Below, one piece after another: positions 46,634 through 48,505 of a stretch of 64,000 bases of DNA; the first letter of the stretch is position 1, and each line of letters opens with the position of its first letter. Location of the stretch: assembly GCA_015485495.1 (NCBI GenBank), contig WFTL01000062.1, forward strand, positions 1-64,000. Direction: 5' to 3'. Source of the stretch: Planctomycetaceae bacterium. Its GTDB lineage: Bacteria > Planctomycetota > Planctomycetia > Planctomycetales > Planctomycetaceae. The notes under the pieces were generated by a model. The model was given only the letters and a program-made list of their open reading frames with translations. It was not told where the DNA came from and did no database searches. A program made the position numbers and the translations under genes.

Positions 46634-46681
46634 GGTGAGGTGCCCCCATTTTCTGTACCAGGCGTTATGAGAGTACGGGTT
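46634..46681 (+). repeat. Left inverted-repeat copy
   Basis: This copy reads GGTGAGGTGCCCCC and continues with the shared core. It sits in the promoter-side flank of the minus-strand enoyl-CoA hydratase gene. Confidence 0.85.
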
Positions 46682-47091
46682 GGGTAAGGGATTCCGCAGT
46701 GTGCTGCCGTATGCGGACGGAGAAGTGCATGCTGCGTGGGTATCCAGGCTGATGGTTTTTCGATTGGAGCAGAAGCTGTGAGTCGCACGGATTCGGCCCG
46801 GCAGTGGGCGGAGCGGATCGAACAGCAGGAGATGTCCGGACTGTCGACTGCCGCGGGTCTGCGCCGTTGCCGCATTCGCGCCGCTCCACTCCTTCATCTG
46901 GCCTGCCGGCTTCCCGCTCGCAACCAGGAATCACAGCTGAAGGGCGCAAGCCATACCACGACCGCGGGCCGAGAAGATCGTGCGGCGAAGGAGTGCCGAT
47001 TCTGCGAACGGCGAATCACAACCACTGAAACAACAATGGGTTGCCGCAAATAACTGTCCACCCCACACCTATTTCGTATATTTCGCTTATT

Positions 47092-47153
47092 GCGTTTGTT
47101 GCGATTGTTGCGATTGTTGCGATTGTTGCGATTGTTGCGATTGTTGCGATTGT
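47092..47153. repeat. 9-bp tandem array (about seven units)
   Basis: GCGATTGTT is repeated five times exactly, preceded by one unit with a single mismatch (GCGTTTGTT) and followed by a nearly complete unit. The whole array sits just upstream of a TATACT -10 element. Confidence 0.95.
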
Positions 47154-47163
47154 GCGATATACT
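47135..47163 (+). promoter_or_regulatory. Putative promoter for the antitoxin gene, -35 inside the repeat array
   Basis: TTGCGA (within the 9-bp array) and TATACT are separated by 17 nt. Because the same hexamer recurs every 9 bp, adding or losing units upstream would keep the -35/-10 spacing. The leader to ATG 47388 would be about 220 nt. Confidence 0.5.
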
Positions 47164-47186
47164 TTACCGTCCAACGAGCAAACTCC

Positions 47187-47226
47187 GTGAACGAACTTCC
47201 GCAGTGACGAACTTCCGCAGTGACGA
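47187..47226. repeat. Direct repeat of GTGACGAACTTCCGCA
   Basis: One copy with an extra A (47187-47203), one exact copy (47204-47219) and the start of a third follow directly in the antitoxin leader. Confidence 0.85.
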
Positions 47227-47287
47227 ACTGCGATCCCATTGGAGGTCGACAGGTTGCTGCGCTGCGCGCGAATAACACGTGCCCCTT

Positions 47288-47307
47288 CCGCCGCTAACCA
47301 GCGGCGG
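47288..47307. promoter_or_regulatory. Perfect 8-bp stem hairpin in the antitoxin leader
   Basis: CCGCCGCT and AGCGGCGG face each other across a 4-nt AACC loop. It could be an operator bound by the antitoxin or an RNA attenuator. No T-run follows. Confidence 0.45.
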
Positions 47308-47387
47308 CCCCATTGAAGCTGCTCCGCTCCATTCGGAATCTCTTCGAAAGAGCGGGCCTTCCACTCTCAATCAAGGGTGGACCAGAA

Positions 47388-47834
47388 ATGACGACACTGA
47401 CATCACATGAACCGGTTTCACCATCGGTGGAAGATGTGCGGCTGGCGAAAGCGTCCAGCCGACGACTGGCCCTGTTTCTCAATCAAAATCTGAAAGTCTG
47501 CATCGCCGAGACCCAGGAACAGGTCGAGTTACCGGCGGTGGCTGTACGGCTGCTCATCGATCTGTTGTCTGCGATGGCGGAAGGCAATGCGGTGACGCTG
47601 ATTCCGATCCACGCCGAGCTGACGACACAGCAAGCTGCGGACCTGCTCAATGTTTCGCGTCCGTTCCTGGTCCGACAACTCGAAGATGGCGTCATTCCCT
47701 ACCGGAAGGTCGGAACGCATCGGCGGGTTCTGTTCAGTGACCTGATGGAATACAGGCACAAGACCGACAGCAAGCGGCATGATGCATTGGATGAACTTGC
47801 AGCCCAGGCTCAGGAACTCGAGATGGGCTACTGA
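47388..47834 (+). CDS. Excisionase-fold (helix-turn-helix) antitoxin
   Basis: This protein of about 148 residues is a DNA-binding antitoxin of the type usually paired with PIN toxins. The MerR/excisionase-like motif is ELTTQQAADLLNVSRPFLVRQLEDGVIPYRKVGTHRRVLFSDL in the middle, followed by a C-terminal segment that normally wraps the toxin. ATG 47388 follows AAGGGTGGACC; the track start at 47313 is TTG. Its toxin gene downstream is truncated, so it is now an orphan antitoxin. It lies inside the inverted-repeat unit. Confidence 0.85.
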   Translation: MTTLTSHEPVSPSVEDVRLAKASSRRLALFLNQNLKVCIAETQEQVELPAVAVRLLIDLLSAMAEGNAVTLIPIHAELTTQQAADLLNVSRPFLVRQLEDGVIPYRKVGTHRRVLFSDLMEYRHKTDSKRHDALDELAAQAQELEMGY

Positions 47835-48049
47835 GCCACGATCCGTCACGGACATCGGCAACATTCACCGCACTTTACGACGCCTGTGTGCTTTACCCCG
47901 CCCCGCTGCGTGACCTGCTCATGCGGCTGGCGATGACCGATCTCTATCGCGCGCGATGGACGAACCAGATTCACGACGAGTCGATTCACAATGTGCTCGC
48001 GGATCGACCGGATCTGACTGCCGAGCAGTTGGAACGAACCCGCACTCTC
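47831..48049 (+). pseudogene. Truncated PIN-domain toxin remnant
   Basis: The frame reads FTALYDACVLYPAPLRDLL and continues RARWTNQIHDESIHNVLADRPDL then EQLERTRTL. This is the characteristic N-terminal third of PIN toxins and includes the first catalytic Asp (YDAC). It then runs into the right inverted-repeat copy (ITPGTENGGTSP), so the other acidic residues are lost. The frame has no ATG; CTG 47831 overlaps the antitoxin stop, where functional pairs often have ATGA. The ORF track starts it at GTG 47888, inside the conserved core. It cannot be an active nuclease. Confidence 0.8.
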
Positions 48050-48084
48050 ATAACGCCTGGTACAGAAAATGGGGGCACGTCACC
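48037..48084 (-). repeat. Right inverted-repeat copy
   Basis: This is the inverted partner of the copy at 46634-46681. It marks the point where the PIN toxin frame is broken. Confidence 0.85.
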
Positions 48085-48505
48085 GGCCGTGTCGAACACG
48101 CTGTGGGACAGCGTCAGGACGCCATCATCGCCACCCGTCATGGACGACAGGGTGGGATACGGGCGCGGGTCGCGGTAGACGAACGCTCCACTGGCATACT
48201 GGGTGGTTTCCAGATCCAGCACCGTGCGTGTCTGGTGCAGGCGTTCGGCGCCGTCGCAGGTGGATTCCGTGGCCGTCTGATGGGCCGGGTGCAAAGAGCG
48301 GCTTCTGAGCGGCCGATCCGGAAACAACCGGGTTTTCAGAGGTCCGGAACCCGGACAGAATTCCCGTTTCTTTTGTCGGAAAACCCCTTCGAAGTCCGGA
48401 CTGAAATCGACGGACGGCGGTCTGCAGACTATGCTGCAGACGTTCGATTCGCTTCCCCAGATTCCGTGCAGCGGACCATTTCCGACTGCCACATTTCAGA
48501 CTGCC
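48050..48505. other. Region between the toxin remnant and a small membrane protein gene
   Basis: After the right repeat copy a minus-strand frame reads LHQTRTVLDLETTQYASGA and YRDPRPYPTLSS before ending in the repeat. It could be the 3' remnant of a protein disrupted at this junction, but I recognise no family. Nothing else in the 456 bp is convincing. Confidence 0.35.

Follow-up and report, generated by a model that had tools for sequence, protein, structure and literature searches.

The window analysed here is the whole 64,000-nucleotide stretch at positions 1-64,000 of the forward strand of contig WFTL01000062.1, from Planctomycetaceae bacterium GCA_015485495.1, a draft genome of 4.67 Mb in 180 contigs that is 98% complete. 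Within it, positions 46634-48084 hold what remains of a toxin–antitoxin operon: an apparently intact promoter and operator, an intact antitoxin gene and a truncated toxin gene. Two inverted arms, which we assign to the right end of one IS3-family element, bound this region, an IS66 fragment abuts the left arm, and a short CRISPR piece separates the promoter from the antitoxin. An earlier note on this DNA had described two 48-bp inverted copies enclosing 1.45 kb, with an antitoxin gene, a broken PIN toxin and tandem repeats in the interior and no transposase. An inverted-repeat search placed the copies at exactly the coordinates it gave, and the interior contents, without any complete transposase, are as it described; the IS66 tnpA fragment and the CRISPR repeat, which the interior also holds, had both been missed. 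The tandem repeats are of two kinds, a 9-bp unit, TTGCGATTG, in 7.8 copies and a 16-bp unit, ACGAACTTCCGCAGTG, in 2.4 copies.

Antitoxin and toxin genes

The antitoxin gene (47388..47834, plus strand) is intact and encodes a 148-aa protein of the HTH_17/excisionase type (PF12728, 4e-11; TIGR01764, 4e-13), whose best match among 40 relatives has 64% identity. A fragment of a PIN toxin of the RSP_2648 family (47843..48043, plus strand; NF046100, 3e-8) follows it, so that a DNA-binding HTH antitoxin lies directly upstream of the toxin, as in type II systems. The fragment scores 34 bits where the NF046100 cut-off is 170 and is not a complete toxin. It is damaged at both ends. No ATG, GTG or TTG stands in frame ahead of the DACVLYP motif, leaving the gene without a canonical start, and at its other end the fragment ceases to match relatives after ...AEQLERTR and ends at 48043, whereas the protein of intact relatives goes on as LERTR-(Q/E/D)LM(N/D)A... 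and has some 120 further residues. A PIN match is present at 73 of the 80 homologous loci compared, in most cases over the full length and immediately after the antitoxin gene. The profile matches and the truncation relative to homologues bear out the description of this locus as a toxin–antitoxin remnant with an intact HTH_17 antitoxin and a broken PIN toxin.

In gene order, spacing, the two protein families and a promoter built of 9-bp repeats, the locus resembles other excisionase/RSP_2648 (NF046100) pairs. It differs from them in a toxin truncated at both ends, an operator grown to seven or eight units, a CRISPR piece in the leader and insertion-sequence scraps on the flanks. As a separate observation, the PIN gene at the locus of the closest antitoxin (L076, G003:C1:5310435-5313878) seems to lose its reading frame as well, a short way past the DACVLYPAPLRDLL motif.

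A predicted 9-bp repeat operator shared across the family

Upstream of the antitoxin gene, tandem 9-bp units of the form (R)TTKCGNNT occupy 47072..47158 on the plus strand (47090-47158, period 9, as delimited by TRF) and make up the predicted operator of the toxin–antitoxin promoter. A putative -10 box, TATACT (47158..47163, plus strand), begins 6 bp past the final exact unit, an offset also seen in homologues. When the leader was compared by BLAST with the 80 homologous loci, the same 9-bp unit appeared in the same place in about 25, and tandem runs of the RTTKCGNNT type (at least two units) lie upstream of 48 of the 80, in homologues from several phyla. The corresponding counts in controls were one in 80 mononucleotide shuffles, none in 73 regions taken 600-900 bp upstream and none in 80 antisense sequences.

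A motif-free measure gave the same period. Self-similarity across 69 non-redundant 160-bp upstream regions, computed at lags from 3 to 24, had just two peaks, at lag 9 (0.327, with 0.264 in shuffled sequence) and at lag 18 (0.302, with 0.263). The most enriched upstream 6-mers include TATTTC, ATTTCG, GTTTCG and TTGCGT, and the starts of -10-like TANNNT sequences in homologues cluster at 6, 15 and 24 bp past the last matched unit, a spacing in phase with the 9-bp repeats.

From these sequence comparisons, the TTGCGATTG repeats are the predicted promoter/operator of the family, and the copy in this locus appears to be intact and longer than usual. The antitoxin would bind the 9-bp repeats and repress its own promoter, as its HTH domain and the common practice of type II systems suggest. 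The papers that we searched contained no description of this 9-bp operator or of RSP_2648. A phase-locked, direct-repeat operator conserved from planctomycetes to cyanobacteria, proteobacteria and Nitrospira offers both a testable model of autoregulation and a sequence signature with which the excisionase/PIN family could be annotated.

Inverted arms derived from IS3-family ends

The two arms (46634-46681 and 48037-48084) are each 48 nt long, complementary at 46 of 48 positions (96%) and 1355 nt apart. The match is far above chance: its significance against the whole genome is 1.3e-14, the second-ranked inverted repeat of the surrounding 4 kb has 16 nt at 81%, and background chance repeats run to 12-16 nt. 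The earlier note had called the arms IS3-like, and this held up. In two copies at contig ends (L042 and L043), the terminal repeat found in each arm is contiguous with the frame of an IS3-type DDE transposase (...NGFAESFFSRLPDELLNVEEF...HSSPGYRTPSEFALQCAG...) that matches PF13683 rve_3 (4e-19) and the IS3 model NF033516 (3e-23).

The portions derived from the insertion sequence run from 46636 to 46712 and from about 48044 to 48082; the outer 2 bp of the arms (GG/CC) are a chance match and not part of the element. The left arm (46636..46712, minus strand) is an IS3-family right end comprising the terminal inverted repeat TGAGGTGCCCCCATTTTCTGTACCAGGCGTTATGAGAGT and C-terminal codons of the transposase (...RQHTAESLTQPVLS*), with the stop codon inside the arm, where CTCTCATAACGCC on the minus strand reads ...LTQPVLS*. 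The right arm (48044..48082, minus strand) is a second, inverted right end of about 40 bp, which matches the IS end over 44 bp at 98% and joins the PIN gene over a 7-bp overlap, AACCCGC. These inner bases are PIN coding sequence (ERTR) as well as IS sequence. The inner bases of the right copy had been read as continuing the PIN protein naturally as ERTRTL; ERTR is indeed natural PIN sequence, but TL already belongs to the insertion sequence.

The arms share a terminal repeat and a transposase C terminus with the IS3 family, whose members have long terminal repeats and the genes orfA and orfB; the unit, by comparison, has right-end scraps alone, with no orfA/orfB core and no left end. A relative (G027) has two elements of the group that are almost complete, at about 1.28 kb with both orfA and orfB, and they put the natural length of the terminal repeats at about 40-48 bp. 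Contig C89, from the same genome as the window, has a left end upstream of orfA that reads TGGCATGCTCCCCAAAAACTGGTCCAGGTGGTATGAGAGTCTCTAG and is clearly unlike the right arm, which argues that each of the arms is a right end, the two being inverted relative to each other. This sequence-based assignment is strong but not absolute, because in one of the G027 elements (L192, G027:C1:996900-998900) the left and right terminal repeats hardly differ over 48 bp. The sister copy in that genome (L193) retains a distinct left end, and L192 looks like the product of end-to-end conversion.

The same end recurs at about 17 further places in the genome, one per contig; the window's contig is the only one with two. 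These solo copies have one sharp outer edge (TGAGGTGCCCC; TGAGGTGCCCCC) and variable inner ends, at 40, 62, 74, about 95-104, 141 and 196 bp. Beside the left arm lies the 5' part of a tnpA accessory gene of the IS66 family (46706..46951, plus strand), which is likewise repeated elsewhere, with 84-91% identity to stretches in contigs C91, C126, C146, C54 and others. A longer copy (L058) matches NF047593, IS66 TnpA, at 2e-15; the fragment in the window is itself a weak match (0.009).

These observations bear on the earlier proposal that the unit is a non-autonomous element, in which two inverted IS3 ends carry the antitoxin as cargo and are moved in trans by an IS3-family transposase. The length of 1.45 kb matches the size of IS3 elements, the arms are about as long as the natural terminal repeats of this group, and fragments of IS3-type transposases are present in the genome. 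However, the unit is single-copy in the genome and has no target duplication (AGGG precedes it and CCGG follows it), and its arms are two right ends rather than a left and a right end facing each other. The inner breakpoints differ between the arms, the left retaining transposase codons, and the right arm cuts the toxin gene. The solo copies found when the genome was searched with the repeat lie scattered, without the antitoxin and unrelated to the genes enclosed here, a pattern that the earlier note had itself named as speaking against a mobile cassette. Relatives, for their part, carry the antitoxin with an intact PIN gene and no IS end, with a single exception among the 80 loci (L128), where a 39-bp match, the only one of its kind, lies 1.9 kb upstream of the antitoxin. 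No record covering the unit was present among 72,556 plasmids. Given the scattered solo copies, the missing target duplication and the two right ends, we consider mobilization of an antitoxin cargo in trans very unlikely, and the supposed mobile cassette is thereby removed.

In the second proposal, an inverted duplication of a junction, recombination or template switching would have placed an inverted copy of one IS end on the far side of the locus. Such an event would account for arms that are inverted and so nearly alike, but the similarity stops at the limit of the IS end, with no adjoining non-IS sequence in common, and solo copies elsewhere resemble the left arm about as closely (96-99%), so the arms need no special tie to each other. 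As each arm is its own scrap of an IS end with its own inner breakpoint, such a duplication is not needed, and we regard it as highly improbable.

A CRISPR piece in the antitoxin leader

Between the promoter and the antitoxin lies a CRISPR repeat, R2 (47284..47319, plus strand; CCTTCCGCCGCTAACCAGCGGCGGCCCCATTGAAGC), that is identical at 36 of 36 positions to the repeats of two arrays elsewhere in the genome. It is preceded by a 37-nt spacer, S1 (47247..47283, plus strand), comparable with the 36-38 nt of the spacers in those arrays, and by a diverged repeat, R1 (47211..47246, plus strand), with the hairpin CGCAGT-GACGA-ACTGCG. R1 lies exactly one period (73 nt) upstream of R2. After R2 it is the best match to a planctomycete repeat template on both strands of the 64-kb window, with 3 mismatches of 22, and its gapped score of 30 exceeds the highest value, 29, among 1500 segments of the window. 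The perfect R2 and the 73-nt spacing would fit R1-S1-R2 as a piece of an array, but R1 has diverged and a single repeat is perfect. A candidate second spacer, S2 (47320-47356, plus strand), follows in register, and then a candidate decayed third repeat, R3 (47357-47392, plus strand), consisting of CCTTCC and an 8-bp hairpin and containing the antitoxin ATG; R3 keeps the 73-nt register and is the third best ungapped match, but its gapped score is at chance level (p 0.37). By established CRISPR knowledge, the ATTGAAGC end sets the sense strand of the repeat, which is the strand of the antitoxin. Separately, the 2.4 tandem copies of the 16-bp unit (47191-47229) overlap the first half of R1, and an arm of the hairpin looks duplicated.

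Operator and start codon are 236 nt apart in this locus, whereas 71 homologues have a median distance of 43 nt, a difference consistent with an insertion. R1-S1-R2 spans 109 nt (182 nt with the candidate third repeat), much of the excess. Repeats of this type (YTTCCGC-hairpin-GCGGCYCCATTGAAGC) occur in 12 of 59 genomes searched, including the window's own, often in long arrays. No CRISPR-like piece lies upstream of any of the 80 homologues, where the best match has 6 mismatches, and we therefore rejected a conserved association between CRISPR repeats and these toxin–antitoxin pairs. A phage-borne solitary repeat was likewise set aside as the source of R2, which has no exact match in IMG/VR.

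The two arrays with the same 36-nt repeat (L066, C44:18955-19231, and L067, C73:5596-5952) have a period of 72-74 and both run off contig ends. A type III-B operon (L178, C2:1-6109), cut by the start of its contig and adjoined by a WYL regulator, encodes a Csx1-like CARF-HEPN-CARF protein, Cmr1, Cas10/Cmr2 and a probable Cmr3, which is truncated and was assigned by eye from its position. The genome has no match to Cas1 and none to Cas3 (cas3_core) above the cut-off.

An ectopic pair of CRISPR repeats, the first of them diverged, beside a toxin–antitoxin locus recalls CreTA (type VIII), a CRISPR-regulated toxin–antitoxin system in which the effector is a type I Cascade, the toxin is an RNA and the first repeat is the more diverged (PMC9458426). 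Unlike CreTA, the present locus has a protein toxin and a genome with type III-B rather than type I genes, no spacer matches its promoter, and the repeat sits in the antitoxin leader. The least probable reading is that R1-S1-R2 yields a guide RNA from the toxin–antitoxin promoter that ties the operon to the type III-B system as in CreTA: a perfect R2 after a more diverged R1 has the reported CreTA polarity (PMC9458426), the piece is in the correct register and strand between an intact promoter and the antitoxin, and a Cmr operon is resident, but S1 has no match above shuffled controls, S2 has nothing better than a match one count above shuffles, the toxin here is a dead protein gene in place of the RNA toxin that accompanies a type I Cascade in CreTA, and the arrangement is found in none of 80 homologues.

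The spacer searches behind this judgement were negative. In the examined parts of the genome, S1 found no target better than shuffles did; the best match of S2, at 26 of 37 positions where 12 shuffles reached no more than 25, is not a convincing target, and no long seed for it lies in the locus. Neither spacer has an exact 24-nt match in viral contigs, and the longest word shared with 46900-48100 is 8 nt, with none in the promoter. We rejected a CreTA-like guide on these tests, and because the spacers lack a convincing target, a promoter seed or a viral match, the guide is at best a bare possibility. Equally doubtful is a broader version in which the leader repeat pair, placed under the 9-bp-repeat promoter of the operon itself, let the type III-B machinery control the antitoxin, through hairpin cleavage or an S1 guide, and the toxin was lost later; if true, the locus would be a protein-toxin, type III counterpart of CreTA. 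As it stands, the locus is one isolated, possibly meaningful instance of a toxin–antitoxin leader that has captured a CRISPR repeat. CRISPR fragments in a regulatory position are rare, and ectopic-repeat systems of the CreTA kind could have such fragments as their starting material.

A probable history: a decaying operon struck by other DNA

Our preferred reading, to which we give a probability of about 80%, is that independent insertion-sequence scraps and a CRISPR fragment lie inside a decaying, chromosomal type II toxin–antitoxin locus. The region would then be the relic of an operon, with an excisionase-like HTH_17 antitoxin and an RSP_2648-type PIN toxin, that was struck repeatedly by other DNA. 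An IS3-family copy probably once lay to the right of the toxin gene or within it, and a deletion between two AACCCGC sequences would have eliminated the remainder of the toxin gene together with the element's body and spared the element's last 40 bp. Such a deletion, joined at the 7-bp overlap, would explain the truncated toxin and the absent IS body together. The left arm would be an unrelated insertion of the same element, decayed from the inside like the approximately 16 solo ends at other sites. Recombination with one of the resident arrays is the probable source of the CRISPR piece, which would now be read within the antitoxin leader. With the toxin dead, nothing would maintain the locus, and decay would follow.

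Neither an empty site nor an intact version of the locus was found in close relatives; the antitoxin and the IS end are both absent from the two genomes of the same genus, and relatives yielded no match to the enoyl-CoA hydratase of the flank at 1e-60, an overly strict threshold. A search of the window against Rfam gave no match. The chief reservation concerns assembly: in a draft of 180 contigs, short repeats may have been misjoined, at an IS end or at the CRISPR repeat.

Three smaller observations concern the surroundings of the IS3 ends. First, an open frame on the minus strand immediately to the right of the right arm (48085-48300; ...TRTVLDLETTQYASGAFVYRDPRPYPTLSSMTGGDDGVLTLSHSVFDTAG) has no Pfam match and may be another gene cut by an IS end. 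Second, fragments that by eye resemble DUF559-type endonucleases adjoin solo ends at three loci (L042, 4550-4711; L046, 3650-3800; L053, 4150-4600). Finally, the inner breakpoints of the solo ends (the left arm and about 16 copies, L041-L055 and L060) are not evenly spread but cluster at about 61-62, 74 and 95-104 bp, which perhaps reflects a small sub-element or a preferred break site.
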